Shown here piece by piece: positions 20,178-60,372 of a DNA stretch of 64,000 bases. Numbering within the stretch: position 1 is the first letter of the stretch; each line of letters starts with the position of its first letter. The translations under genes and the position numbers were made by a program. The stretch comes from Bacteroidota bacterium (GTDB lineage: Bacteria; Bacteroidota; Bacteroidia; Palsa-965): the NCBI GenBank assembly GCA_006218065.1, contig VBWE01000002.1, forward strand, positions 239,045 to 303,044. The letters are read 5' to 3'. The notes below the pieces were generated by a model that worked only from the letters and a program-made list of their open reading frames with translations, was not told the origin of the DNA and did no database searches.

Positions 20178-22259
20178 TTGCGCACACCGTTTTTGTTCCT
20201 GCTGTTCTTTTTTTCGCTGCACGCGTATGCGCAACCGCAAACATCTGCACCGACCGGCAGCCTAAAAGGAACCGTGGAAAATGCAAAAACAAAAGCCAAT
20301 GTCCATGTTGTCCAGGTAAGTATCACACATGCGGTCACTGGGGAAAAGAAAAGTGTGCTGACCAATTATTACGGCAAGTACTTTTTCGAAGACCTGGAAC
20401 CGGGAATTTATGCTGTGCAAACGTATCACGGTAATTATTATGATACGCTCCTGCTGAATGTAGCCGTATTGGCCGATTCGGCAACGAAAATGAAAATTAA
20501 AATCCGCGCACGGGAAGTCCCGGTCGTTGTTGTCAATGTGTCTCTTCATCCACCCGATAATCTGTATGAAATAACTTATGATGACGAGGGGCCGGATCTG
20601 CCTTTTTATTCCGGGACATGGTGGACGGAAGAAAACATATCCACTGCCGGCTATGACCTGCTTGCATTTCAACACCTGCTCGTGAACCCGGGAAAAGTAA
20701 AACGACTGGAGATCAGCATCCCTCCGCACGGAAAAATTCCGCCCGAAATAGCGCAGTTTACGCAACTGGAACGGCTGAGGATTTCATTTTACGGCAGCCC
20801 TGTGCTGACGGACGAATTATGGAAACTTTCCCGGCTGAAAAAACTGAATATCCATTCGGATATGCCGCTGACCGTTCCGCCGGGAATCAAAGAACTACAG
20901 CAGCTGGAAGAACTGATTTTCAGTTGTAAAGAATTACAGCCGTTACCCGATGAATTTGCACAACTGAAATCGATCAGGATACTGAGCCTGAACTCCTGCG
21001 GGCTGACTGCTGTTCCGCCGCCCATCGCCGGGTTGACCCGGTTGCGCTGGCTCAGCATGAACGGGAACAAACTGAAAACTGTACCTGCTTTTCTGACCGG
21101 CTTAACGGAACTTCGCTCCCTGGGTTTATCTTATAATGAGCTGCCCGAAATTCCCGCAGAAATTTCCAGGCTGATTAAACTGGAGGAACTGTATCTTGAA
21201 AACAACCGGCTGATTACGCTTCCGCCGGAAATCGGTCAGCTGACATCATTGCGTCAGCTCACGCTGGAAAAAAATCAGCTCACCGTTTTGCCCGAATCGT
21301 TCGGTAAACTGGAAAAACTCACCAGCCTGCAACTGGAACAAAACAGGTTACGCGAATTGCCTGCAAGCGTTGGGCAGATGACGGCACTGACTTTCATTTT
21401 TGCTTCCGGTAATAACCTGGCGAGCCTTCCGCGCGAAGTCGGAATGCTCACGCAATTAACCGAGGTCGATCTGAAAAACAATAAAATTACTGTCCTGCCG
21501 GTTGAAATCGGGAACTGGCGCAAGCTTGAACAACTTACTTTATCAGGCAACCGGCTTATTACGCTCCCGGCTTCCGTGGGACAACTGGATTCGCTTACCC
21601 GGTTGTTCCTGCTCGGGAACCCGCTCCGGCAATTGCCGGCAGAGATCACCGGGCTTAAAAAGCTAGAATGCCTGGAGCTGGAAAAACTCGGGTTGCTCCA
21701 ACTGCCTGATACCACCTGGAACTTTATCAATAAATTCGGTTATATCATCTCTGGTGTTCCCGATTCGATCGCCGGGAAACCAGTATCATACTACCTGAAG
21801 CACCCGGATATCGATCCCTTTTCCAAAAAATTCGTGCAGGGAAAATTATCTTTTACCGGCGACAGCGTTACCAAGATTGTCCTGAATAAAATAAGCCAGG
21901 CCAATCGCGACGTACTGCCGTTTTACTTTTTTATCATGCATACCTGCATGCAGGAAGATCATTCGCCCGGGCGCGATCCCGATTTCATTTTCTATGCGTA
22001 CCACCAATTGCGTGAAGCGGCAGCTCATTTTGTTTTAACCCGCCCGTGTACCTTTTGCGCTGCGATAAAAAGTAAAGAGTATGCAGAATTTTATGACCTG
22101 TGGCGTTCTTTTATCACCTGCAGCATGGGCGCTTATACCGAAAATGCAGACCAGCAGATCAAGGCGGGATATGCCCGGCTGAAAAAAAACTGCGGATCGA
22201 AATATGCTGAAGAATATGAAGAGTTGATCCGGGAAATATTCTGCAGCGGGAAAGGATGA
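20178..22259 (+). CDS. Secreted leucine-rich repeat protein
   Basis: 693 aa from a TTG start. A signal peptide (FLFLLFFFSLHAYAQ) leads into a carboxypeptidase-regulatory-like beta domain (residues about 30-120, GSLKGTVENAKTKANVHVVQV). Residues about 180-520 form some 14 LRRs with the 23-residue pattern LxxLxLxxNxLxxLPxxIGxL, for example LRQLTLEKNQLTVLPESFGKLEKL. The C-terminal 170 residues are unlike LRR and contain RPCTFCAAI. It lacks a clear T9SS domain. It is probably periplasmic or surface-bound and binds protein. A promoter-like TATCTTTCG lies just upstream at about 20154-20162. Confidence 0.88.
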   Translation: MRTPFLFLLFFFSLHAYAQPQTSAPTGSLKGTVENAKTKANVHVVQVSITHAVTGEKKSVLTNYYGKYFFEDLEPGIYAVQTYHGNYYDTLLLNVAVLADSATKMKIKIRAREVPVVVVNVSLHPPDNLYEITYDDEGPDLPFYSGTWWTEENISTAGYDLLAFQHLLVNPGKVKRLEISIPPHGKIPPEIAQFTQLERLRISFYGSPVLTDELWKLSRLKKLNIHSDMPLTVPPGIKELQQLEELIFSCKELQPLPDEFAQLKSIRILSLNSCGLTAVPPPIAGLTRLRWLSMNGNKLKTVPAFLTGLTELRSLGLSYNELPEIPAEISRLIKLEELYLENNRLITLPPEIGQLTSLRQLTLEKNQLTVLPESFGKLEKLTSLQLEQNRLRELPASVGQMTALTFIFASGNNLASLPREVGMLTQLTEVDLKNNKITVLPVEIGNWRKLEQLTLSGNRLITLPASVGQLDSLTRLFLLGNPLRQLPAEITGLKKLECLELEKLGLLQLPDTTWNFINKFGYIISGVPDSIAGKPVSYYLKHPDIDPFSKKFVQGKLSFTGDSVTKIVLNKISQANRDVLPFYFFIMHTCMQEDHSPGRDPDFIFYAYHQLREAAAHFVLTRPCTFCAAIKSKEYAEFYDLWRSFITCSMGAYTENADQQIKAGYARLKKNCGSKYAEEYEELIREIFCSGKG

Positions 22260-27040: not shown

Positions 27041-27964
27041 ATGACTGTAAGCGATAATCTCGATGTTTTCTGCGGAAAATCCGTGGACGATTACGACCGG
27101 AACACCGGCATTGTTAACCCCCAGGGCCGTGCCTACCGGATACGGATCACGTATGACGAGTACGAACAGGGAACAAAATCCGAAGACCTTATCACGGCAT
27201 TTGTCAACGATCCGAAAGCCGGCGAAGTGACGGACCTGATCATCGGCGCATACGATTATGAATCGAGTACGGATTCGGTCGGCATTGTGACGGCTATCGT
27301 CAACGCGAAAGACAAACTGCGGAACCTGAAAAACCTGTTCATCGGCGATATCACCTACGAGGAAAGCGAAATTTCCTGGATCCAGCAAAGCGATGTCAGC
27401 CCCGTTTTTGCAGCATACCCGGGCCTGGTTCATTTCCAGGTGCGCGGCGGAACAGGACTCCGGCTCAGCGCGCTTAAGCACGATACGCTGGAAACACTCA
27501 TCATCGAAACCGGCGGCATGTATCCTGAAACGCTGAAAGATGTGTGCAACGCAAATTTGCCCAACCTGCGCTCGCTCGAACTTTGGCTCGGGTCGGAACA
27601 TTACGGGTTTGAATCCAAAACGGAAGACCTGGCCCCGATCCTTTCAGGAAAACTTTTCCCGAAACTCAAACGCCTCGCACTTCGTGACAGCGAGATCAGC
27701 GATGATATTGCAAAAGCGCTGACCGGCGCACCCGTTATGGAACAGATTGAAGAACTCGATCTTTCGATGGGAACACTCGGCGATGCAGGCGCGCAGGCCC
27801 TGATCGATAATCCCGCCGTGCGCAAACTGAAGAACCTAAATATCGACCATCATTACCTGTCGAACGCGATGATGGAAAAAATGCGCCAGATCGGCATTCC
27901 CGTAGAGATGGACGATCAGAACGAGGAAGACGAAGGCGAGCGTTACGTGGAAGTTGCAGAATAA
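27041..27964 (+). CDS. STM4015-family leucine-rich repeat protein
   Basis: 307 aa from the ATG at 27041; the open frame before it is repeat sequence. The N-terminal half has beta/alpha character (GKSVDDYDRNTGIVNPQGRAYRIRITYDEYEQ and later VTDLIIGAYDYES). The C-terminal half has RNI-type leucine repeats (LETLIIETGG, LRSLELWLG, LKRLALRDSEISDDIAKALTGAP, IEELDLSMGTLGDAGAQALIDNPAV, LKNLNID). It ends with an acidic tail EEDEGERYVEVAE. It belongs to a family named after Salmonella STM4015, always found with the next four genes; function unknown. A weak promoter-like TAAATTG at 27004 precedes it. The gene may be a scaffold or a substrate (inference). Confidence 0.85.
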   Translation: MTVSDNLDVFCGKSVDDYDRNTGIVNPQGRAYRIRITYDEYEQGTKSEDLITAFVNDPKAGEVTDLIIGAYDYESSTDSVGIVTAIVNAKDKLRNLKNLFIGDITYEESEISWIQQSDVSPVFAAYPGLVHFQVRGGTGLRLSALKHDTLETLIIETGGMYPETLKDVCNANLPNLRSLELWLGSEHYGFESKTEDLAPILSGKLFPKLKRLALRDSEISDDIAKALTGAPVMEQIEELDLSMGTLGDAGAQALIDNPAVRKLKNLNIDHHYLSNAMMEKMRQIGIPVEMDDQNEEDEGERYVEVAE

Positions 27965-27968
27965 GCAC

Positions 27969-29093
27969 ATGAAATTCCGGATACTGGGGAACCCGGAAAA
28001 CAGGCGGGTTTCTTTATTTGCAGAAGCGCTGCAATCCGCCGGCCTGGCTCCGCCGCAGGTTCTCCCGTATGCCGGTTTCATTCGCAACCCGGATCTTCCC
28101 GGTGATACGCTGCAGGAAAAATGCGTATTCCGCATCGATTCGCCCGGTGAGAACGAAGAAGTCCGGCGACTGCTTATCCTCCAAGGCATGCGCCGCGAAA
28201 AAGAAAAACAGGAAGAGGTCAGCCGGCTCACCGGCGATTTCGGAAGAGTGGGTTATGGCCGTGAATGGTACAACGGGTTTGCCGGGCTGCTGAAAACCAT
28301 CGGGCAAAAAGCGCAGGCTTATCCGCAGATCCGCTGGATGAATACGCCGCAGGATATCCGGACGATGTTCGACAAACAACAATGTCATGCATTGTTCCTC
28401 GAAAAAAATATCCCGGTCCCGGCGCTGCTTCCCGAAGTTTTTACTTACGAAGCGTTAAAATCCGAAATGAGGAAAGCGGGAAAAACACGGGTCTTTGTAA
28501 AACCGGCGCACGGTTCATCGGCTTCGGGTGTTGTGGCTTTCCGCATGCAAAAAGAAAAAATGGAAGCGATCTCTTCTGCAGAAGCAGTGGAAAAACCCGG
28601 CGGAATTGCGCTTTACAATTCACTGAAAATCCGTTCCTATAAAAATGAAAATGAAATCGCCGGTCTGCTCGATTCCGTTTTCAGGGACAAAGCCATCGTG
28701 GAAGAATGGATTCCGAAAGCCGGGTACAAGGGACAGGTTTTTGATCTGCGTATCCTGGTCATCGGCGGCAAAGCTTGTCACACTGTGGTCCGCAGGAGCA
28801 AGTCGCCGATCACCAACCTGCACCTCGGGAATAAACGCGGGCTCACGGAAGACGTCGTTGCGCTGATCGGGAAATCCAAAATGGAAGAAGCGCGTTTCAT
28901 CGCCGAACAGGCTGCGGCCTGTTTCCCGGGTTCGCTTTATATCGCAGCCGACGTGCTGATCGCGTCCGACAGGTCGACGATAAAAATACTGGAAGTAAAT
29001 GCCTTCGGCGACCTGCTTCCCGGGATCCTGCATAACGGTGAATCGACTTATACCGCCGAAATCAACGCGCTGCTGCAAAACGATGCCGGATGA
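27969..29093 (+). CDS. STM4014-family ATP-grasp protein
   Basis: 374 aa, starting four bases after the LRR stop. After an N-terminal Rossmann-like part (MKFRILGNPENRRVSLFAEALQSAG), the ATP-grasp core shows RVFVKPAHGSSASGVVAF near residue 180, the ADP-ribose/glutamate ligase-like block VFDLRILVIGGKACHTVVRRSKSPITNLHLGNKRG near 265-295 and the magnesium-binding EVNAFGDLLPG near 345. These enzymes activate a carboxylate with ATP and join it to an amine. Substrate unknown. It is one of five genes of a conserved cassette and shares ATGA with the next. Confidence 0.85.
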   Translation: MKFRILGNPENRRVSLFAEALQSAGLAPPQVLPYAGFIRNPDLPGDTLQEKCVFRIDSPGENEEVRRLLILQGMRREKEKQEEVSRLTGDFGRVGYGREWYNGFAGLLKTIGQKAQAYPQIRWMNTPQDIRTMFDKQQCHALFLEKNIPVPALLPEVFTYEALKSEMRKAGKTRVFVKPAHGSSASGVVAFRMQKEKMEAISSAEAVEKPGGIALYNSLKIRSYKNENEIAGLLDSVFRDKAIVEEWIPKAGYKGQVFDLRILVIGGKACHTVVRRSKSPITNLHLGNKRGLTEDVVALIGKSKMEEARFIAEQAAACFPGSLYIAADVLIASDRSTIKILEVNAFGDLLPGILHNGESTYTAEINALLQNDAG

Positions 29094-29887
29094 TCGACAT
29101 GAACGCTATCGTGGGAAAAATGAATATCGCGCTCATCACGCTCGATACGCTTCGCTACGATGTTGCGCAGGATCTTTTTGCAGCCGGCAGAACGCCCAAT
29201 CTCGCTTCCGTTATTCCCGGCGGATGGGAAAAAGCGCACAGTCCCGGCAGTTTTACTTTTGCCGCGCATACTGCTTTCTTCGCCGGATTCCTGCCCACGC
29301 CGGCCACGCCGGGAAATCATACGCGGTTATTCGCAGCGAAATTCCGCGGAAGCGAAACAACCGGTCCCGGAACCTGCGTTTTTGAAACGGCGGATATCGT
29401 TACCGGGCTTGCGCAAAAAAATTACCGCACCATCTGCATCGGCGGCGTAGGGTTTTTCAATGAACAAACCCCGCTCGGTTCGGTGCTGCCGGGATTGTTT
29501 TCCGAGAGCTACTGGAAACCTGCGTTCGGCGTTACCGATCCTGCATCGGCGAAAAACCAGTTTCATTTTGCCGCCGGCCTGCTCGCGGAACAGGAGCGAG
29601 ACAAGCCTGTTTTTTTATTCATTAATATTTCCGCCATTCACCAGCCGAATTATTTTTACCGCGAAGGAGCGAAAACAGATTCCTTTGAAACGCACGGCGC
29701 AGCGCTGGAATACGTGGATGCGCAACTGCCCGTGCTTTTCGATGCGCTGCGAAAACAGAACGATACGTTTTGCATTTTCTGCTCCGATCACGGTACGGCG
29801 TATGGCGAAGACGGTTACCGCGGCCATCGTGTGGGACCAGTTCCTTACGCATCATGTATCCTGAAAGGCAAAACCGATGAACGATAA
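29090..29887 (+). CDS. STM4013-family hydrolase, sulfatase/alkaline phosphatase fold
   Basis: 265 aa beginning at an ATG that overlaps the ATP-grasp stop (ATGA). The metal site appears in ALITLDTLRYD at the N-terminus, the catalytic-loop-like SPGSFTFAAHTAFFAG around residue 50 and the C-terminal metal-binding CSDHGTAYGEDGYRGHRVG. This is a compact member of the alkaline phosphatase superfamily, shorter than sulfatases (usually above 400 aa). It lacks the C-x-P-x-R sulfatase formylglycine motif, so a phospho- or sulfo-transfer chemistry with Ser or Thr is likely (inference). It overlaps the next gene by 11 bases. Confidence 0.82.
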   Translation: MIDMNAIVGKMNIALITLDTLRYDVAQDLFAAGRTPNLASVIPGGWEKAHSPGSFTFAAHTAFFAGFLPTPATPGNHTRLFAAKFRGSETTGPGTCVFETADIVTGLAQKNYRTICIGGVGFFNEQTPLGSVLPGLFSESYWKPAFGVTDPASAKNQFHFAAGLLAEQERDKPVFLFINISAIHQPNYFYREGAKTDSFETHGAALEYVDAQLPVLFDALRKQNDTFCIFCSDHGTAYGEDGYRGHRVGPVPYASCILKGKTDER

Positions 29888-31196
29888 GCCCGGCCTGTTT
29901 GCCGAAAAATATGCAGGCTATGCGTATTCCTATCCGCATAAGCATGCTTACCGGAGGCTGGATGAAAAAATTCCGGTGGAAAAAATCTGGCATACGGAGA
30001 ACAAAGAAGCCCTGTTCCTGTATGTGCATATTCCTTTCTGCGAAATGCGTTGCGGTTTCTGCAACCTGTTCACCATCGCCAACCCGAAAGAAGACGTTCC
30101 TTCCGCGTACCTCGATACCTTGCAGGTGCAGGCGGAAGTGATGAAGAACATACTGGGCGACGCAAAATTCGGGCAGATCGCCGTGGGCGGCGGAACGCCG
30201 ACGTATCTTGAGCTGCAGGAACTGGAACGTTTATTTTTTATCCTGCACGATGTGCTCGGCGCCGATCTGCAGGCATCTCCTTTTTCATTCGAGATGTCGC
30301 CGAAAACCATTTCGAAAGAAAAACTCCGTTTCCTTTTTACACAAGGCGTCGATCGTGTCAGCATGGGCGTGCAGAGTTTTCTCGACGCGGAAACCGGGCA
30401 GCTCGGCCGCCCGCAAAAATCGGGTGCTGTATATGAAGCGCTGGATATGATTCGTTCCGAAAATTTCGCAGTACTGAATCTCGACCTGATTTACGGTATC
30501 GCCGGGCAAACGCGGGAAACCTGGCTGCAGTCCATCCGCGAAGCGCTGAAATTCTCCCCCGAAGAAATGTACCTCTACCCGCTGTATGTTCGTCCGCTCA
30601 CCGGCCTCGGCAAAAAGAACCTGCATGAGGAAAACCAGCGCGATATACTTTACCGCGCAGGCCGCGATTATTTGCTGGAAAATAATTACGAGCAAATATC
30701 CCTGCGCATGTTCCGGAAAAAAGATACGGCAGGTCATGCGCGGAAAACCATGTACCGCTGCCAGGAAGACGGCATGCTCGGGCTTGGCGCCGGTGCGCGT
30801 TCATACACCAAAGCATTTCATTATTCGTCCGAGTATGCCGTGGAACGGAAAAGCGTGCGGGAAATCATCGCCGGGTATATTTCCAAAAACGCGGAAGATT
30901 TCCGGTACGCCGATTACGGTTTTCACCTGGACAGCGAAGAACAAAAACGCCGGTTCCTGATCAAATCGCTGCTGCACGGGAACGGGCTCGACACGATGCG
31001 TTACGAAATTCTTTTTGGCAGCCCGGTCGCGGTTGATTTTCCCGTGCTGCATCAACTGGAAGAAGAAGGCATGACAATGCGCGACGGCGAACGCATATTG
31101 CTCACCGCTTCCGGCATGGAGTACGCCGACGCCATCGGTCCCTGGCTTTATTCGCAGCAGGTACATGAACGTATCCGCCAATTCGAACTGAGATGA
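29877..31196 (+). CDS. STM4012-family radical SAM enzyme (HemN-like)
   Basis: 439 aa. The SAM/4Fe-4S motif CEMRCGFC (C-x3-C-x2-C) lies near residue 57 within YVHIPFCEMRCGFCNLF. GGGTPTYLELQELERLF and ISMGVQSF are the usual radical-SAM core strands. The overall layout, with a C-terminal HemN-like extension, resembles oxygen-independent coproporphyrinogen III oxidase, but family membership and context argue against heme synthesis. It should generate a 5'-deoxyadenosyl radical to abstract hydrogen from a substrate made by the cassette. ATGA overlap with the next gene (31193-31196). Confidence 0.88.
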   Translation: MNDKPGLFAEKYAGYAYSYPHKHAYRRLDEKIPVEKIWHTENKEALFLYVHIPFCEMRCGFCNLFTIANPKEDVPSAYLDTLQVQAEVMKNILGDAKFGQIAVGGGTPTYLELQELERLFFILHDVLGADLQASPFSFEMSPKTISKEKLRFLFTQGVDRVSMGVQSFLDAETGQLGRPQKSGAVYEALDMIRSENFAVLNLDLIYGIAGQTRETWLQSIREALKFSPEEMYLYPLYVRPLTGLGKKNLHEENQRDILYRAGRDYLLENNYEQISLRMFRKKDTAGHARKTMYRCQEDGMLGLGAGARSYTKAFHYSSEYAVERKSVREIIAGYISKNAEDFRYADYGFHLDSEEQKRRFLIKSLLHGNGLDTMRYEILFGSPVAVDFPVLHQLEEEGMTMRDGERILLTASGMEYADAIGPWLYSQQVHERIRQFELR

Positions 31197-32050
31197 ATTT
31201 TTCGATCCTGTACCGTGGCCCGCTTTCAAGCTGCAATTACAGTTGCGATTACTGTCCGTTTGCCAAAACCAAAAACACGCGCGCAGAACTGGAAGACGAT
31301 AAAAAGAAACTCCGGCGTTTTGTAAACTGGACGAAAGAAAACGCGCAGCATCATTTCGGTATTTTGTTCACGCCCTGGGGCGAAGCCCTGATCCGCAAAT
31401 ATTATCAGGAAGCCATAACCGAACTCAGTCATTCGGAGAATATCCGGAAAGTCGCTATCCAGACCAACCTCAGCTGCCCCACGGGCTGGATGAAGCATTG
31501 CAACCCGGACAAGCTGGCTTTATGGACTACTTTTCACCCGACGCAGATTTCACGGGCGGATTTTGTAAAAAAATGCCGGCAGCTTTTTGAATCCGGTGTG
31601 CGCTTCAGTGTGGGAACGGTAGGTTTTACCGACGCGCTTCCGGAAATCGAAAAACTGCGCGAAGAACTTCCGCCCGAAATTTATGTCTGGGTGAACGCGA
31701 ATAAAAAAACGGCGGATTATTACAGCGAAGAAAATATAAACAGGTTGCTTGCCGTTGATCCGTTGTTTTCCTGGAACCTGCATGCGCATCAAAGCCTCGG
31801 CGAATCCTGCCGTGCGGGCGAATCGGTTTTCAGCGTGGACGGTGACGGAAATATGACGCGTTGCCATTTCATCAAAACCCGTATCGGGAATATTTACGAT
31901 CCTTCCTGGGAAAAAGCGCTGCGCCGCCAGGCGTGTACGAACGCGACCTGCGGATGCCATATCGGTTACGTTCACCTCGATAAGCTGAACCTGCAACCGG
32001 TTTACGGCGACGGGCTGCTTGAACGTATTCCTGTTGACATGGGAAAATAA
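31193..32050 (+). CDS. STM4011-family radical SAM enzyme
   Basis: 285 aa. The cluster motif CNYSCDYC lies near residue 14 (LSSCNYSCDYCPFAKTKN). The C-terminal third has clustered Cys in TRCHFIKTRIGNIYDPSWEKALRRQ, then CTNATCGCH, an arrangement like a SPASM/Twitch auxiliary 4Fe-4S site. SPASM enzymes act on peptides, aromatic or sugar substrates. It is the last gene of the cassette; after it 316 bases hold only a hairpin repeat. Whether both radical SAM proteins act on one substrate in sequence is open. Confidence 0.88.
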   Translation: MNFSILYRGPLSSCNYSCDYCPFAKTKNTRAELEDDKKKLRRFVNWTKENAQHHFGILFTPWGEALIRKYYQEAITELSHSENIRKVAIQTNLSCPTGWMKHCNPDKLALWTTFHPTQISRADFVKKCRQLFESGVRFSVGTVGFTDALPEIEKLREELPPEIYVWVNANKKTADYYSEENINRLLAVDPLFSWNLHAHQSLGESCRAGESVFSVDGDGNMTRCHFIKTRIGNIYDPSWEKALRRQACTNATCGCHIGYVHLDKLNLQPVYGDGLLERIPVDMGK

Positions 32051-51188: not shown

Positions 51189-52115
51189 TCAGTTGAACTT
51201 CGACTCCGATGCAGAAGCGGTACTGCGGTTGTTGAAACGGATACCGATCAGGAGTTCGTGCGTGCCTGAAGAATAGTTTTTCAGGTTGGTCGTCGTAAAA
51301 TCATACGAGTAACCGATCATCAGATTTTCGCGGTAGATGAAACCGGTGTACATGTCCCAGGCGTCGCGGTTCCGGAAAGATGCGCCGAACCATATTTTCT
51401 CTTTGTAAATGGCGCGCATGCCGGCGTCGAACTGGAAGGGGGCGGGTTTCACATACTTGGTGAGCACGGAAGGTTCGAGAATAAAATCTTCGCCGAGATG
51501 AAAACGGTACCCGGCCATGCCGTAGTAATGACGGTTGATCACGCCGGTAGTCGCCATATAATCGAAGAACTTGATCCGGCTTTCGAAAATCTGCATGGAC
51601 GAAGCGCCTACCCAGAAATTATCGGAATACAAATAAAATCCCGCGCCGAAATCCGGCATCAGCGCCGACTGGAGCGCGTTCTGCAATACGTAATCACCCG
51701 CATCGTGCAGCGTGATTTTTTGCCCGTCCATCACGAACTGCAGGATACCGGCGTTCAGCCCCAGGCCGAGTTTTATTTTATCCGTGAGCTTGGCATGGTA
51801 CGCATACGATCCGTAGAAACCGATCCGCCGCGTGGGACCTGTAATGTCCACGAACAGCTGGCTTCCCACGCCCATGTTCATTTTTTTCAGCGGCCCGTGC
51901 ACGGTGAGGATGTAGGTGCGCGGCGCATCGGTAATGCCGCTCCACTGGTAACGGTTATCCGACATACCGAGAAAATACGGGTTCTTGCCTGCGATAGCCG
52001 GGTTCATGGCGTAATCGTTCAGCATGTACTGGCTCCAGTGCGGCAGCTGCTGTGCGCCCGCAAAAAGCGACAGGCCCAGGAGCAGCAGTAAAGCGATCTG
52101 TTTTTTCATGTACAT
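51189..52115 (-). CDS. T9SS membrane protein of the PorP/SprF family
   Basis: 308 aa from ATG at 52115 (MYMKKQIALL). A signal peptide ends FAGAQ, then PHWSQYMLNDYAMNPAIAGKNPYF, the PorP/SprF start, and barrel strands. SprF-like partners anchor or export SprB-like adhesins, and this gene starts four bases after the giant SprB-like gene's stop, so they are one operon. Confidence 0.93.
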   Translation of the reverse strand: MYMKKQIALLLLLGLSLFAGAQQLPHWSQYMLNDYAMNPAIAGKNPYFLGMSDNRYQWSGITDAPRTYILTVHGPLKKMNMGVGSQLFVDITGPTRRIGFYGSYAYHAKLTDKIKLGLGLNAGILQFVMDGQKITLHDAGDYVLQNALQSALMPDFGAGFYLYSDNFWVGASSMQIFESRIKFFDYMATTGVINRHYYGMAGYRFHLGEDFILEPSVLTKYVKPAPFQFDAGMRAIYKEKIWFGASFRNRDAWDMYTGFIYRENLMIGYSYDFTTTNLKNYSSGTHELLIGIRFNNRSTASASESKFN

Positions 52116-52119
52116 GTTT

Positions 52120-55100
52120 TTATCGCATGATGGTGATCGGTCCTGTATAATCTTCCGGGAACAGCGGATCATTCAGGTCGATGACATAATAGTAAGTTCC
52201 TACCGGCAATTCCTGCCCGTTGTAACGTCCGTCCCATGGTGTAGTATATCCCACCGAGCGGAAAAGCAATTCACCCCAGCGGTTATAAACTTCTACCGCG
52301 CAATTTTTAAAGAGCTGGATATTGTCGATCACCCACACGTCGTTGGTGCCGTCTCCGTTCGGCGTAAACCCGTTCGGGAAAGCGATTTCCGGGAGTATGG
52401 TAACCGTAACCGTATCGGTTGCAGAGCAGCCGTTGCTGTTTGTAACCGTAACCGTGTATGTTGTTGTTACCGACGGAGTGGCAACCGGGTTCGCGTTCAC
52501 CGGATCGCCCAGGCCGGTTACAGGTCCCCAGGTATAGGTTGAGCCGGCAGGACCTGTGGGATTGCCGCCGATTACTGTCGATGAACCGGCGAGAATGGTT
52601 ACACTCGCCCCGGCATCCACCGCAGGTAACGGCGAAGCGGTGATCATCACCGTATCCGTATCGGCGCAGCTGCCGTTCAATGCCACCAGGATATAGCTGG
52701 TTGTACCTGTCGGCGGTGTAATGATTGCCGTAACGGCTGAACCGACAAGCGTCAGTCCCGGCAACTGGAACCACTGGTAACTCGTCGCATTCGTGCTGCC
52801 CGAACCGTCGAGCGTAACCTGCGCGAGATCGCAGGAAGTCGTATCGTTACCGGCATCCGCCAGCACGCTTACCGCCGCAATTACCGTGAGTGTATCACTG
52901 ACCTGGCAGCCGTTATTATCTGTAATGATGACCGTGTATGTTCCGCTGAGAATATTCGTAAGGTCTTCCGTTGAAGCGGTAAAGTTCGACGGGCCTGTCC
53001 ATTGATACGTATACGGCAGTGTACCTCCGCTCACGGTGATATCGATCGCTCCGTCGGGAACGGTGTTGCAACTGCTTCCGGTTATGTTCGGCACGCCGAG
53101 TACAAGCACCTGCGGCGCAACGAATGAATTGGTTTGTGTAACGGTACAACCGTTGGCATCCGTTACGGTAACGTTATATGATCCTGCGCAAAGGCCGGTT
53201 GCTGTTTGTGTCGTTTGCGCATTGCTCCAGCTGTACGAGTACGATAAGGTTCCGCCGGAAGGCAGTATCGTGATCGTGCCGTTGCACATGCCCGGGCACG
53301 ATTCGGGGATTACGTTCGCAAACGAAAGCGCGAGTTGTGCGGGTTCTGTAATGATCACCTGCGCGGTGGAAACACAACCGTTGGCATCGGTTACCTGTAC
53401 GAAATAAATTCCTGCACAAAGCGCGGTAAGGCTGTTTGTATTGCCGCCGTTGCTCCAGAGGTACGTGAAAGGAGCTACGCCGCCTGCAACATTCACCGAT
53501 GCAGTTCCGTCACAAACTCCGAAGCAGGTTACGTTCGTTGAAGCGGTGGTTAATGTCATGCTGCTGTTCACGTTATTCACGGGAATAACCACCTGCTGCG
53601 TACATGCGTTGGCATCCGTTATAGTAAGCGTATATAAACCGGCGCAAAGCCCGCTGATGGTTGCTGTCGTTTGTCCGCCGGGCGCCCAGAGATACGTGTA
53701 CGGACCAGTTCCGCCGGAAGGATTCACCGTGATGCTGCCCGAGCAAACGCCGCAGTCGGTATTGGTGATAGACTGGTTCGCGGTAAGCTGCGCAGGTTCT
53801 GCAACGGTAAAGCTTTGTGTAACGATACACCCGGCGTTGTCCATTACCTGTACGTTGTATGCTCCCGCGCAAAGATTGTTTACCGACAATCCTGTTTGTG
53901 CGCCGGGCAGCCACAGGATCGTGTACGGTGCAGTTCCGCCCGAAGGAGCAACCGTCGCCGAACCGTCGCAGGTTCCGAAACAGGTCGCATTGGTGCTTGT
54001 GAGATTTGCCGATGGCGCATTGGTTGCGCTCACCGTTACATTGTATTGTGCCGTGCAGCCGGCAGCATCGGTAATGACTACAGCATAAACACCGGCGCAA
54101 AGTGAAGCGACGTTTTGCGTGGTTGCGCCGTTGCTCCAGAGATAGGTGTACGGCGCAGTACCGCCTGATGTATTCAGGTTAACGCTTCCGTTGCATTGTC
54201 CGCAGGTCGTATTGATCACCGCGGGCGTGATGCTGATGACCGATGGTGCGTTGAGCGTCGTATTGGCTGTAACATTGCAGCCCATGCCGTCAACTACGTT
54301 CACCGTATAAGATCCTGCGCACAGGCCGGATGCAATTTGTGTAACCTGGCTCAGCGGATCATTCCACTGGTAAGTAACCGGCGCTGTTCCGCCGGTAATG
54401 TTGGCGGTTGCCGAACCGTTGCACAGGTTTCCGCAGGCGAGGCCGGAAGTAGTAATGTTTACCGAAAGCGTATTCCAGGGAGCAACAACCGAAGTATCCG
54501 ATTGGGTGCATCCGCTGGCATCGGTGATCGTTACGGTATATGATCCTGCGCAGAGCGCGTTGATGCCTGGTGTCGTCTGTCCGCCGGGCGCCCAGAGATA
54601 CGTATACGGTCCGGTTCCGCCGGTTGCACCCAGGGCGATTGCCCCGTCGCAGATACCGGTGCAGGTGGAGTTGGTAACAAAAGGATTGGGAACGATCGCC
54701 GGAGGTTCGGTTATCGTTACCGGGGAGAAACGAATACATCCGTTTGCATCGGTAACCTGCACGAAATACGAACCTGCGCACAAACCGTTCACCGTGCTTG
54801 TCGTTTGTCCGCCCGGCCAGAGGAATGTATAGGGCGCTGTTCCGCCGATCGGAACTACGTCGCCTGTACCGTCACAGATCCCGGAACACGAAGCGCCGGT
54901 TGTGGTTACCGTTTCACCTGTCGGGCCGCCTGAATTATTTACCGGGATGGTAAATGTATTGCCGCATCCGCTGGCATCGGTAACGGTAACGGTATAAAGT
55001 CCTGCGCACAGGGACGACTGGTTCGGCTGCGCCGGAAGCCCGCCCGACCAGACGTAGTTATACGGCGCTGTTCCGCCGGCCGGCAATACGGTAATGGTTC

Positions 55101-58100
55101 CGTTGCATGATCCGCAGTTTGCCGGGGAACTGGCCACAGCCACTGTAATGGCGGAAGCCGGCGTTACCGTAACCACCTGGATATCCTGGCAGTTGTTGGC
55201 ATCGTTCACGGTAACGGTATATGTTCCGGCGCAAAGTCCGCTGATTGTTTGTGTGTTTTGTCCGCCGGGCGCCCAGAGATAACTGTACGGGCCGGTTCCG
55301 CCCACCGGGTTTGCGCTTGCCGTGCCATCACATGCGCCGTTGCACGAAGGGCTCGTGAACGAGGTATTCGCCTGGAGCAGCACAGGTTGTGCAACCGTCG
55401 CCTGTAGTGTGATTGTGCAGGAATTGGCATCTGTTACGGTTACTGTATAAACACCCGGGCAGAGGCCTGACGCAGTAGCTGTTGTCGCTCCGCCGGGCAT
55501 CCACAGGTACGTGAGCGCGCCGCTTCCGCCGCCTGCTGCAACGGTTGCGCTTCCATCGCACGAACCAAAGCAGGAAACAGAAGTTACACTGGTTGTTCCG
55601 GTAATCGCCGGAGGCTGGTTGATGGTCAGCGACTGCACGGAGGAACAGCCGTTGGCATCCATGGTAGTGATACTGTAAACACCTGCGCACAGGTTGAGCG
55701 CTGTTGCTGTTGTTCCGTTGCCCGGCGACCAGAGATACGTATATCCGGGGACTCCTCCGTTTGCTACTACGGTGGCTGTTCCGTCGCAGGAACTGAAGCA
55801 GGTCGCGTCCGTACCGCTTACCGATGTCTGCAATGCAGTAGGTTCAGTAATAGTGACCTGCTGCTGCGTAGTGCATCCGTTGGCATCCGTTATCGTTACG
55901 GAATATGTTCCCGGGCAGAGGTTGGCCACGGACGGCGTAATCTGTCCTGATGTCCATGAATACGTAAACGGCGCGGTTCCCCCGGTTACTGTGGCCTGCG
56001 CAGTACCGTTGCAGGCCGAGCTGCAGGTTACATCGGTAAAAGTCATGTTGGCGCCGACAGCTACCGGTTCCGTTATTGTAAACTGGAGCACGTTCGAGCA
56101 TCCGTTCGCATCGGTTAATGTAAGCGTGTATGTTCCCGCACATTGCCCGTTTATCGACGGTGTCGTTTGTCCGCCGGGTGCCCAGCTGTATGTGTACGGA
56201 CCTGTTCCGCCCGAAGCGTTGGTGGTGATGCTGCCGTCGCAAACGCCGTTGCACGAAGCCGATACGATGGTTGCGGTTGCCGCAAGCGGCTGCGGTTCGG
56301 TAATGATTACGCTTGTAAATGTGATGCAGCCTACAGCATCGGTGACCTGGACAAACCATGTTCCTGCGCAAAGACCGGTTACTGCGTTTGTTCCGTCGCC
56401 GGTGGGACTTCCGGGCGACCAGTCATACGTAAATGGCGCGACACCACCCACTACGTTTGCATTGGCTGTTCCGTCGCAAACGGCATTGCATGTGGCATTG
56501 GTAGAAGTAGCCTGCACCGTCGGACCATTGAGATTGCTTACGGCGACTGGTGTATTTACGGAACAACCGGAATTGTCCGTGATCGTAACGGTATAAATAC
56601 CCGGGCATAAATTCGAGATCGTGGCAGTGGTTTGTCCGCCTGGCGCCCAGCTGTATGTATACGGACCAATACCGCCGCTTGGGTTGATGGTGATCGAACC
56701 GTCGCACATCGTACAGTTTGCAGGAGATGAAACGTCGTTCGCGACGATCAGGCTGGCTTCGGTTATCGTAAAGGATTGTGTTGCGGTGCAGTTATTGGCG
56801 TCGCTTACGGTAACCGTATATGTTCCGGCGCACAAGCCGTTGATCGATGACGTGGTTTGTCCGCCGGGAGCCCAGCTGTAGGAATAAGCGCCCGTTCCGC
56901 CGGCAGGAACCACGCTTGCTGATCCGTCGCAGACACCGTTGCAGGAAGCGTCTGTACTGGATGATGTGAGTGTGAGCAACGGCGGATCGACAAAGGTGAC
57001 CTGCGCCGAATTAAAACAACCCAGCGCATCTGTGACCGTTACGGTATATGTACCCGAACAAAGCCCGGATACGTTTTGTGTCGTCTGTCCCCCGGGCGCC
57101 CAGCTGTAGCTGTACGGTGCATTTCCGCCGGAAGCGTTCGCACTGGCCACACCGTCGCAGGCGCCGAAGCAGGAAAGACTGGTTTGTACGCTCGTGATGA
57201 TAATATTCACTACCTGGTTGATGTTGGCGACGACGGATGTTACGCACCCGTTGGCATCTGTAACGTTACAGGTGTACTGTCCTACGCATAAGCCCGTGGC
57301 TGTGGGATTGGTGCCTCCCGAAGGCAGCCAGAAATAAGCATACGGAGAAGTTCCGCCGCTTACGTTGATCGTGGCCGTTCCGTTACAGATCCCGCAGCTT
57401 GATGTGGTGGCCGAAACAACTGCAGAAAGCGGGGAGGGCTGCGCAATGGTCACCGTCTGGTTTGCAGAACATCCGTTCGCATCCGTAACCACGCAGGTGT
57501 ATGTACCGATACACAGGCCGTTGATCGATGACGTGGTTTGTCCGCCGGGCGACCAGAGGAAAGTATACGGCGCAGTTCCGCCGGTCGGGTTCGCATTCGC
57601 GATTCCGTTGCATTGTCCGTTGCAGGTGGCATCTATCGAAGCCAGGTTCGGCTGAAGCGCGGTTGGTTCGGTTACGGTAATCGTTTCTGTCCCGGTACAT
57701 GCGTTGGCATCGGTTACGGTTACCGTATAGGTGCCTGCGCAAACATTGTTGATGACGGCTGTCGTCTGTCCGCCCGGCGCCCAGCTGTATGTATAAGCGG
57801 GAGTGCCGCCTATCACAGCAATGGAAGCGGAGCCGTCGCACACGCCGTTGCAGGAAGTCGGTGTGGTGGATTGTGTAAGTACCAGTGCGGTAGGCTGTGC
57901 AATCGTAACGCTGCTTGTCGTGGTGCAGCCGTTCGCATCCGTAACCGTTACGGTGTACGATCCGGCACATTGATTATTTATCGTGGACGTAGTTTGTCCA
58001 CCCGGCGCCCACACGTATGAAAACGGTGCGGTACCTCCGGCAACAACGGCGGCAAGCGATGCATTGCAGGAACTGTTGCAGGGAATCTGCGTGGCGTTGA

Positions 58101-60372
58101 CGGAAGAGGTGAGCGGGTTGGGCTGTGTAACGGTGAAGTTTTGTGTCTGCACACACCCGTTGGCATCGGTAACGGTACAGGTATAATTGCCCGCGCAAAG
58201 TCCGCTGATCGAAGAAGTGGTTTGTCCACCCGGCGCCCAGCTGTACGAATAAGGCGCCGTTCCGCCGGTCGGGGTCGATGTTGCCGTTCCGTCGCACACG
58301 CCGTTACAACTTACGTTCGTTACGTTCACGTTGGGCTGAAGCTGCAGCGGTTCGGTAATCGTTACTGTAGCTGTCGCGGTGCACCCGTTGACATCGGTAA
58401 CGGTCAGGCTGTACGATCCCGGGCAAAGGTTGTTTATGGTTTGTGTACCAAGATTGCCGGGCTGCCATACGTATGTATAAGGTGAAGTTCCGCCTACCGG
58501 GTTTGATGTCGCGCTTCCGTCGCAGGCGCCGAAACAGGTTATATCGATATCCGACGCGTTCGCGATCAGCAGGGCCGGTTGTATAAGCGTAACCGAGCCG
58601 GTAGCCGTACACCCGTTGGCGTCGGTTACGGTAACCGTATAGGTTCCCGGGCAAAGGTTGGCCGGGTTGGCTACGTTACCGCCCGCAGGCGACCAGCTGT
58701 AGGTATACGGAACGGTTCCACCGCTGGCATTCGCCTGAGCGATACCGTTGCAGGCGTTGAAACAGGTGATGTTGATCCCGGTAGGATTTACCAGCAAAGG
58801 CGCAGGTTCGGTTACGTTGAAAACCTGCTGGAGTGTACATCCGTTGGCATCCGTAACCGTGAGTGTGTATGAACCGTCGCAGAGGCCGCTCAGGTTGGGT
58901 GTGGTTTGCCCGCCGGGCGCCCAGCTGTACGAATAAGGCGCCGTTCCGCCGCTGACCGAAGTACTGATCGCCCCGTCGCAGACACCATTGCAGGATGCGT
59001 TGGTGATATTGCCCTGGATGGCAAGCGGATTGGGTTGCGTAATGACGGCAATGTAAGTCGAGGTACAATTGTTTATGTCCGTTATGGTACAGGTATAATT
59101 GCCCGGGCAAAGTCCGTTGATCGAATTTGTAGTTTGCCCGCCCGGCGCCCAGCTGTATGAATAAAGACCCGTTCCGCCAATAGGATTCACCTGCGCCGAT
59201 CCGTCGCAAAACCCGTTACAGCTAACATCGATGTTGGTTCCCTGCGGGTTGAGCGCGGCCGGCTGTGTAATGACGGAGGTTTGTGTAATGGAGCATCCGT
59301 TGACATCGGTCACCGTTAATACATACGATCCCGCGCATTGATTCGTGATGGCCGGCGTGGTTTGTCCGCCGGGCGCCCAGCTGTACAGGTAGCCGGGAGT
59401 TCCGCCGGCGACGGATGCTGTACTCGATCCGTTACACTGGCCGTTACAAAGCGGCGGTACATTGCTGAAAAAGATAACCAGCGGTGGCGGATCGGTTACG
59501 ATGGCAAAGGCCGGGATCTGGTCGCCGTTGATCAGGTCGGTTACTACAACAAGATACGTTCCTGCGCAAAGACTGTCGGCCAGGGCACCGGTATCGCCGT
59601 TGCTCCAGACGTAACTGAAACTGCCCGAACCGCCGGAAACAATAGCGGTTGCCGTAGCCATGCAGTCGCCGTTGCACAGGTTCGGCACAACAACGGTGAT
59701 TACAGTATGCGTTTGAGGAGAAAGTTGTCCGCCGGAGTTTATTCCCGGGACATTGTTGTTGCCTGCCGGGACAAAAGATCTTCCGTTTACTTCATAGCCA
59801 TCGGAAACGACGGTGATTTTGGCTGCAGGATCTTTCTGAAAACCGGGCCCCGTGAAAAATATTTTTGTTCCCCGGAGTACCAGCTTCGCGCCTGTGCCTG
59901 CAGTTGTCAGCCCGCTGCACACGACCTGTTCCGCGCCGGCTTCGAACGTGCCGTTGTTGCTGACCCGGATGGTACCTGTAACGAATAAAGCAGGACTTGC
60001 CGTTTTCCAGCTTCCTTTATCAATGAGCAGGTCGCCCTGGATGCGGAGGTTTTCCCGGTGCTGCAGGAAAGCCTGTTTATTTGCAGAAACAGACCAATGG
60101 ATGGATTGCAGGTGGAGCGGCAGATCGACAGTGACCTGCTGACCGGGTGAAGTAAAGGAGGTATTGGTAAACCAGGCCTGGTCGCCGGAGCCGGGAACCG
60201 ACGCGCCGGGCCGCCCGCCGTTCGTTGCCGACCAATGTGCCGGATCGGACCAGTTTCCGCTTCCTCCGACCCAATAACGATCTGCAGCCGAAAGACTTGC
60301 CGTGTGGATCAGAAAAGAGAAAACCAATAAAGCGAAACGTAGGTGTTTGCCCAAACCTTTTACATGTTTCAA
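52120..60372 (-). CDS. Giant SprB-repeat adhesin with T9SS type B sorting domain
   Basis: 2,750 aa. A signal peptide (FALLVFSFLIHTASLSAADRYW), a G8-like or adhesin-like N-terminal domain to about residue 230 (YWVGGSGNWSDPAHWS), then about 30 SprB repeats of about 75 residues (CNGVCDGTA, GGTAPYSYSWAPGGQTT, LCAGTYTVTVTDANGC), each with four Cys, then two Ig/PKD-like domains and a type B sorting domain (FPNGFTPNGDGTNDVWVI, VEVYNRWGELLFRS, GTYYYVIDL). Surface adhesin, as in gliding bacteria, exported through T9SS. Followed by its SprF-like partner. Confidence 0.95.
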   Translation of the reverse strand: MKHVKGLGKHLRFALLVFSFLIHTASLSAADRYWVGGSGNWSDPAHWSATNGGRPGASVPGSGDQAWFTNTSFTSPGQQVTVDLPLHLQSIHWSVSANKQAFLQHRENLRIQGDLLIDKGSWKTASPALFVTGTIRVSNNGTFEAGAEQVVCSGLTTAGTGAKLVLRGTKIFFTGPGFQKDPAAKITVVSDGYEVNGRSFVPAGNNNVPGINSGGQLSPQTHTVITVVVPNLCNGDCMATATAIVSGGSGSFSYVWSNGDTGALADSLCAGTYLVVVTDLINGDQIPAFAIVTDPPPLVIFFSNVPPLCNGQCNGSSTASVAGGTPGYLYSWAPGGQTTPAITNQCAGSYVLTVTDVNGCSITQTSVITQPAALNPQGTNIDVSCNGFCDGSAQVNPIGGTGLYSYSWAPGGQTTNSINGLCPGNYTCTITDINNCTSTYIAVITQPNPLAIQGNITNASCNGVCDGAISTSVSGGTAPYSYSWAPGGQTTPNLSGLCDGSYTLTVTDANGCTLQQVFNVTEPAPLLVNPTGINITCFNACNGIAQANASGGTVPYTYSWSPAGGNVANPANLCPGTYTVTVTDANGCTATGSVTLIQPALLIANASDIDITCFGACDGSATSNPVGGTSPYTYVWQPGNLGTQTINNLCPGSYSLTVTDVNGCTATATVTITEPLQLQPNVNVTNVSCNGVCDGTATSTPTGGTAPYSYSWAPGGQTTSSISGLCAGNYTCTVTDANGCVQTQNFTVTQPNPLTSSVNATQIPCNSSCNASLAAVVAGGTAPFSYVWAPGGQTTSTINNQCAGSYTVTVTDANGCTTTSSVTIAQPTALVLTQSTTPTSCNGVCDGSASIAVIGGTPAYTYSWAPGGQTTAVINNVCAGTYTVTVTDANACTGTETITVTEPTALQPNLASIDATCNGQCNGIANANPTGGTAPYTFLWSPGGQTTSSINGLCIGTYTCVVTDANGCSANQTVTIAQPSPLSAVVSATTSSCGICNGTATINVSGGTSPYAYFWLPSGGTNPTATGLCVGQYTCNVTDANGCVTSVVANINQVVNIIITSVQTSLSCFGACDGVASANASGGNAPYSYSWAPGGQTTQNVSGLCSGTYTVTVTDALGCFNSAQVTFVDPPLLTLTSSSTDASCNGVCDGSASVVPAGGTGAYSYSWAPGGQTTSSINGLCAGTYTVTVSDANNCTATQSFTITEASLIVANDVSSPANCTMCDGSITINPSGGIGPYTYSWAPGGQTTATISNLCPGIYTVTITDNSGCSVNTPVAVSNLNGPTVQATSTNATCNAVCDGTANANVVGGVAPFTYDWSPGSPTGDGTNAVTGLCAGTWFVQVTDAVGCITFTSVIITEPQPLAATATIVSASCNGVCDGSITTNASGGTGPYTYSWAPGGQTTPSINGQCAGTYTLTLTDANGCSNVLQFTITEPVAVGANMTFTDVTCSSACNGTAQATVTGGTAPFTYSWTSGQITPSVANLCPGTYSVTITDANGCTTQQQVTITEPTALQTSVSGTDATCFSSCDGTATVVANGGVPGYTYLWSPGNGTTATALNLCAGVYSITTMDANGCSSVQSLTINQPPAITGTTSVTSVSCFGSCDGSATVAAGGGSGALTYLWMPGGATTATASGLCPGVYTVTVTDANSCTITLQATVAQPVLLQANTSFTSPSCNGACDGTASANPVGGTGPYSYLWAPGGQNTQTISGLCAGTYTVTVNDANNCQDIQVVTVTPASAITVAVASSPANCGSCNGTITVLPAGGTAPYNYVWSGGLPAQPNQSSLCAGLYTVTVTDASGCGNTFTIPVNNSGGPTGETVTTTGASCSGICDGTGDVVPIGGTAPYTFLWPGGQTTSTVNGLCAGSYFVQVTDANGCIRFSPVTITEPPAIVPNPFVTNSTCTGICDGAIALGATGGTGPYTYLWAPGGQTTPGINALCAGSYTVTITDASGCTQSDTSVVAPWNTLSVNITTSGLACGNLCNGSATANITGGTAPVTYQWNDPLSQVTQIASGLCAGSYTVNVVDGMGCNVTANTTLNAPSVISITPAVINTTCGQCNGSVNLNTSGGTAPYTYLWSNGATTQNVASLCAGVYAVVITDAAGCTAQYNVTVSATNAPSANLTSTNATCFGTCDGSATVAPSGGTAPYTILWLPGAQTGLSVNNLCAGAYNVQVMDNAGCIVTQSFTVAEPAQLTANQSITNTDCGVCSGSITVNPSGGTGPYTYLWAPGGQTTATISGLCAGLYTLTITDANACTQQVVIPVNNVNSSMTLTTASTNVTCFGVCDGTASVNVAGGVAPFTYLWSNGGNTNSLTALCAGIYFVQVTDANGCVSTAQVIITEPAQLALSFANVIPESCPGMCNGTITILPSGGTLSYSYSWSNAQTTQTATGLCAGSYNVTVTDANGCTVTQTNSFVAPQVLVLGVPNITGSSCNTVPDGAIDITVSGGTLPYTYQWTGPSNFTASTEDLTNILSGTYTVIITDNNGCQVSDTLTVIAAVSVLADAGNDTTSCDLAQVTLDGSGSTNATSYQWFQLPGLTLVGSAVTAIITPPTGTTSYILVALNGSCADTDTVMITASPLPAVDAGASVTILAGSSTVIGGNPTGPAGSTYTWGPVTGLGDPVNANPVATPSVTTTYTVTVTNSNGCSATDTVTVTILPEIAFPNGFTPNGDGTNDVWVIDNIQLFKNCAVEVYNRWGELLFRSVGYTTPWDGRYNGQELPVGTYYYVIDLNDPLFPEDYTGPITIMR
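52930..59690 (-). repeat. About 30 SprB-type coding repeats (about 225 bp)
   Basis: Every unit carries Cys in C-x3-C-D/N-G, LC-x-G and D-x-x-x-C positions. Units 11, 14, 21, 25 and 27 have the shorter C-x2-C start. Blocks 13-15 and 20-22 share the same order of unit subtypes and the NGPT/GGPT linkers. Confidence 0.85.

Follow-up and report, generated by a model that had tools for sequence, protein, structure and literature searches.

The question raised by positions 27041-32050 of the window (the whole stretch of 64,000 nucleotides from a Bacteroidota bacterium that was analysed) is what five neighbouring genes do together, and on which molecule their products act. All five lie on the forward strand and are intact, with one terminal stop apiece. 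They encode an STM4015-family leucine-rich-repeat (LRR) protein of 307 residues (27041-27964), an STM4014-family ATP-grasp ligase of 374 residues (27969-29093), an STM4013-family hydrolase of the alkaline phosphatase superfamily (29090-29887), an STM4012-family HemN-like radical SAM enzyme (29877-31196) and an STM4011-family radical SAM enzyme with an auxiliary cysteine cluster (31193-32050). The family identities given in the preliminary description hold, as each protein scores above the curated NCBIfam cut-off: 340.7 against 275 bits for STM4015 (NF038076), 386.2 against 175 for STM4014 (NF038074), 391.3 against 250 for STM4013 (NF038075), 575.5 against 380 for STM4012 (NF006067) and 403.4 against 200 for STM4011 (NF038073). 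NCBIfam names these families as STM40xx proteins or hydrolases and gives them no function, as had been stated. The overlaps claimed are real (ATGA at 29090 and at 31193, and 11 bases at 29877-29887); STM4015 and STM4014 are separated by a 4-base gap (27965-27968). By themselves, overlaps are insufficient for the "fixed stoichiometric unit" that had been read from them, and it is from genome comparisons that the co-inheritance of the genes emerges. Recent foreign origin was considered on the basis of composition and rejected, the GC content being 0.524 in the cassette and 0.488 in the window, and GC3 being similar in the genes around it. Elsewhere in the window, a protein of 2,513 residues (51189-59661) that contains 23 SprB repeats, carries a type IX secretion signal and is encoded beside a PorP/SprF gene is by its sequence probably a large surface adhesin.

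Gene order was compared in about 50 fetched loci from Bacteroidota, Planctomycetota, Chloroflexota, Verrucomicrobiota, Myxococcota, Pseudomonadota, Actinomycetota, Deinococcota, Bacillota and others, in which 4015-4014-4013-4012-4011 is the usual order. The cassette is present in at least ten phyla, including some E. coli and Salmonella. The 4015-4014 pair lies on the strand opposite 4013-4012-4011 in six loci, and gene positions in three genomes from the order of Chitinophaga indicate 4013-4012-4011 followed by 4015. The cassette can therefore be divided into two modules, 4015-4014 and 4013-4012-4011, with the LRR protein pairing with the ligase. Among 199 genomes of the order of Chitinophaga, STM4013, STM4012 and STM4015 match one identical set of six; STM4011 was found in five of these and STM4014 in four, the absent cases being in fragmented assemblies, close to contig ends. 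Among 5,426 E. coli genomes, 4013-4011 were found in 154 and 4015 in 154, the two sets having been counted separately, and the single E. coli genome inspected has all five genes plus a HAD gene. Co-occurrence across genomes is thus near-perfect and the genes do not split freely, so that the notion of one unit stands as far as co-occurrence goes; its modules can nevertheless be re-ordered, and STM4015 is sometimes multiplied or unlinked (in three loci it is non-adjacent and lies elsewhere in the genome). The distribution of the cassette is rare and patchy. STM4011 was found in 0 of 11 genomes of the same family as the window genome, and since the cassette is missing from all of these, horizontal gain or repeated loss, of undated age, is likely. 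Two degenerate loci were also seen. On a Bacteroides finegoldii plasmid (L012:6513-10530) the locus is decaying, with STM4013 reduced to a 77-residue stub and STM4012 gone; a WGR domain is present at the N-terminus of its STM4015, and its STM4011 and a HAD phosphatase form one fusion protein. What is left in a planctomycete relic (L093) is a C-terminal fragment of STM4014 and a disrupted STM4015 end, the rest being absent in the stretch read.

STM4015 sequences share an acidic, hypervariable stretch, after which comes a motif that ends at one identical residue. In the window protein these are a linker (27911-27940), poorly conserved among 120 tagged homologues, and the C-terminal tag RYVEVAE (27941-27961) ending in Glu307, the proposed site of action. 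Cassette-bearing genomes yielded 122 homologues scoring 150 bits or more, of which 114 have the exact end acidic linker-R-[Y/F]-x-x-V-[G/S/A]-Glu-stop and 3 more a close variant ending in Glu; because the search pattern requires Glu and an aromatic residue, 117 of 122 ending in Glu is the less biased figure. Across the 120 non-redundant homologues that carry the tag, Arg is found at position -7 in 113 and Val at -3 in 92; -6 is occupied by Tyr or Phe, -2 mostly by Gly, Ser or Ala, and -1 by Glu. Matches to the pattern among 22,203 ORFs from fetched loci are nearly all STM4015 homologues. Comparison of the tails, as had been suggested, finds them conserved exactly through the last residue and tracking the cassette. 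Enterobacteria and Bacteroides have a variant tag, YMNxM[YF]TE or YPMITE, which keeps the final T-E and the M but not the R-Y, a point against modification of the tail; their STM4014 is also the most divergent (24-30% identity).

The AF2 model of STM4015 (pLDDT 95) has the same fold as PDB 2ra8 (TM 0.81, 32% identity), a structural-genomics entry with no function given. This Bacteroides fragilis protein (Q64V53) is itself a member of the family (278.9 bits to the profile) and has the tail YPMITE near its chain end; its natural C-terminus is not free, since eight further residues, probably a purification tag, follow the tail. The tail of the window protein is modelled at a pLDDT of about 87, and it might therefore pack against the body of the same molecule, which would be a second reason for its conservation. 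A second LRR protein in the window (20490-22259, 589 residues), with repeats resembling those of LRR effectors, is likely unrelated to STM4015 beyond repeat similarity.

In a myxobacterial Archangium MAG, 14 dispersed paralogues of STM4015 score above 90 bits; several of them carry WGR domains, all end in the tag, and STM4011 is in single copy. The mean identity of these paralogues is 0.32 in the body, 0.10 in the 20-residue linker before the tag and 0.66 in the tag. STM4011 occurs in 61 of 145 genomes of the order to which this MAG belongs, and at least one tagged homologue was found in 23 of 23 cassette-positive genomes tested (22 from that order plus the window genome). Among 55 Myxococcales genomes lacking STM4011, any homologue was found in four only, G444, G525, G530 and, weakly, G447, and none of these cassette-negative homologues has the tag, even though those of the first three score 110-167 bits (G525 and G530 162-167 bits). 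One further untagged homologue occurs in G112, a genome kept outside the cassette-free set. This contrast is small, with three informative cassette-free homologues, and points in one direction: the tag disappears along with the cassette. Against modification of the tail, the tag has been lost despite the cassette in the first (distal) Herpetosiphon paralogues and in one Myxococcales copy. Four Herpetosiphon loci (L029, L031, L033, L037; 1-3700) have four tandem STM4015 copies ahead of one enzyme set, the first copy having a spoiled or extended tag, e.g. AIAVSEYLQD.

It had been proposed that STM4015 is the carrier or substrate and that its tail is the site. As the tail is conserved and cassette-tracking and the genes do not split freely, this guess is well supported by circumstance, the chemistry being a prediction, and the cassette very probably acts on the tag. 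The preliminary description also left a choice between a natural-product and a protein-modification pathway. With many diverged tagged LRR proteins sharing one enzyme set, protein modification is favoured and a released natural product fits less well. The same sharing of one short C-terminal motif by diverse LRR bodies would also be expected if the tag were a docking peptide, by which the LRR proteins bring different targets to the enzymes, in the way that LRR F-box proteins do for one ubiquitin ligase. An exact end may be needed for C-terminal docking as well, and F-box LRR proteins are among the Foldseek neighbours of STM4015, though any LRR protein may match these. We nonetheless consider docking unlikely, as the nearest folds to the ligase modify a C-terminal Glu or peptide carboxylates, for which an invariant terminal Glu is what is needed, and as the pairing of 4015 with 4014 is explained no better by a docking motif.

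By profile, the best solved relatives of STM4014 are LysX (E 1e-7) and RimK. The nearest Foldseek matches to its AF2 model (pLDDT 92.8; plasmid-derived rows were left out of the structure-prediction alignment) are ArgX with LysW, PsnB, LysX/ArgX with LysW-gamma-AAA, and RimK with RpsF; the fold alone is no proof of a protein substrate, since D-Ala-D-Ala ligases match STM4014 too. Invariant in STM4014 are K136, K178, D259, R261, R275, the sequence TNLHL, D328, E342, N344, G347 and D348. For LysX and ArgX the substrate group is the gamma-carboxyl of the C-terminal Glu of LysW, whose tail is recognised by a GSWGR motif (PMC10433800), and RimK extends the C-terminus of RpsF (PMC10092738). STM4014 scores 32.6 bits against the RimK model TIGR00768 (cut-off 143.4) and 22.9 bits against the LysX/ArgX model TIGR02144 (cut-off 275.6), and has HGSSASG in place of GSWGR; falling short of both cut-offs and lacking the motif, it is neither LysX nor RimK. 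The core of the argument is this pairing of what the profile and fold comparisons class as a ligase of the RimK/LysX branch with a protein that ends almost invariably in Glu.

The likeness to ArgX/LysX with LysW, together with an acidic tail ending in Glu as in the EDWGE of LysW (PMC10433800), would also fit STM4015 as a LysW-like carrier, on whose terminal Glu a small molecule is built and then released as a free metabolite. Such a role seems improbable, to a greater degree than docking: up to 14 diverged, dispersed carriers for one enzyme set would be odd, as would the four tandem copies in Herpetosiphon, the unit has no LysK-like releasing peptidase, and the GSWGR motif is absent. Covalent modification of the tag's terminal Glu is, in our analysis, the best single explanation, with a docking role as its main rival.

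Of the remaining enzymes, STM4013 has, as described, no C-x-P-x-R motif, and FTFAAH stands in place of C/S-x-P-x-R; a formylglycine sulfatase was rejected on the absence of this nucleophile motif. Its Thr (29255-29257) aligns where the homologous phosphodiesterase NPP (2gsn) has SLTFPNH, and we take this Thr to be the nucleophile, going by what is known of the alkaline phosphatase superfamily. At 29822-29848 the window protein has five residues fewer than other complete aligned homologues (GHRVG-PVPY versus GHRVGHSTVWEVPM), and a nearly invariant His is among those missing near 29836. The gap could reflect an in-frame deletion of 15 bases or an error in the assembly, and the hydrolase may be impaired; apart from these five conserved residues the window cassette is an ordinary member. 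STM4012 is a HemN-like radical SAM enzyme as stated, its cysteines C55, C59 and C62 (30039-30062) being kept in 51 of 51 sequences. At 146.8 bits it resembles HemN, and the unit might on that ground belong to haem metabolism, with STM4012 as a coproporphyrinogen oxidase. This is extremely improbable: the score is far under the HemN cut-off of TIGR00538 (324.95 bits), two further HemN/HemW-like proteins are encoded in the window genome, and no haem gene recurs in the loci. STM4011 is likewise the second radical SAM enzyme that had been described, with C14, C18 and C21 (31232-31255) and SPASM-like cysteines at 206, 224, 248, 253 and 255 (31808-31957), all eight being conserved in 51-52 of 52 sequences. 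Its cysteine pattern is like that of peptide-acting SPASM enzymes, although, despite the five conserved auxiliary cysteines, it reaches only 16.7 bits against the SPASM model TIGR04085 (cut-off 27).

HAD phosphatase genes recur in 15 loci, lying downstream in Salmonella and E. coli and being fused to STM4011 in Bacteroides, a hint that the precursor is phosphorylated. A DUF6745 gene and a small protein of about 100 residues stand beside the cassette in 15 loci (L008:9897-11218, L010:3316-4641). In the window, neither a HAD phosphatase nor a DUF6745 gene adjoins the cassette. No natural-product export or peptidase gene is recurrent near the cassette in the fetched loci. Anti-phage defence was dismissed, PADLOC having given weak radical-SAM matches only.

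Intact co-inherited genes, exact conservation of the C-terminus, association of tag and cassette, the enzyme classes and conserved catalytic residues were all computed. For the ligation, the carboxylate used, the attached group, the order of steps and the cellular role, we infer the following. The cassette would be a protein-tail modification system, with LRR proteins as substrates, ligation by STM4014 at the terminal Glu, and radical-SAM and phosphohydrolase steps, a reading to which we give slightly better than even chances. Its substrates would be STM4015 and, in some genomes, many LRR paralogues whose C-terminus consists of an acidic linker and R-[Y/F]-x-x-V-[G/S/A]-Glu-COOH. STM4014, of the RimK/LysX/graspetide-ligase branch, would activate a carboxylate of the terminal Glu and join to it an amine-bearing, possibly phosphorylated group. 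STM4011, with its auxiliary clusters, and the HemN-like STM4012 would then modify the tail or the attached group, and STM4013, plus the HAD phosphatase in many loci, would strip phosphate from this group or from a precursor of it. The LRR body might be the constant partner or targeting part, and the modified tail the functional end. That one enzyme set puts a complex group on the C-terminal Glu of an LRR/WGR family sharing the seven-residue tag is a more specific proposal, to which we give a little less than an even chance. If it is true, the variable recognition domains of LRR/WGR proteins would bear one common chemical end, five anonymous families would be resolved into one mechanism, and LRR proteins with a radical-SAM-made C-terminal group would join the known protein modifications. 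Paper searches with the gene names, and for LRR together with radical SAM, returned nothing on function, and in a full-text search the only mentions of the gene names came from tables dealing with selection and sigma-54. The families already have names; no description of the tag, of its dispersed copies or of the link to the ligase appears to exist in the papers searched.

Several known systems resemble the cassette in part. Graspetide ligases such as PsnB, which is among the nearest folds to STM4014, activate a peptide carboxylate, and graspetide loci can contain SPASM-type radical SAM enzymes (PMC8939145), so that the LRR domain could be pictured as a giant leader and the tag as a core peptide that undergoes cross-linking and is cut away. 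We regard this as very unlikely. Graspetide core peptides have a conserved acid with Lys, Ser or Thr partners, whereas the tag has no such conserved nucleophile for an ester or amide ring, and neither peptidase nor exporter belongs to the cassette or recurs around it. RimK with S6/RpsF is a related ATP-grasp system acting on a protein C-terminus; it differs in its partner, in the distance of STM4014 below the RimK cut-off and in the extra enzymes of the cassette. The amino-group carrier pathway of LysX/ArgX and LysW shares the ATP-grasp fold and a partner with an acidic end and Glu as its last residue. LysW, however, is a zinc protein of 54 residues, whereas STM4015 is an LRR protein of 300 residues, and the accompanying enzymes are LysZ/Y/J/K there and two radical SAM enzymes with phosphohydrolases in the cassette. 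With the NCBIfam STM4015-STM4011 families, the window proteins agree in passing all cut-offs, and their gene order is that found in Salmonella, E. coli and Deinococcus.
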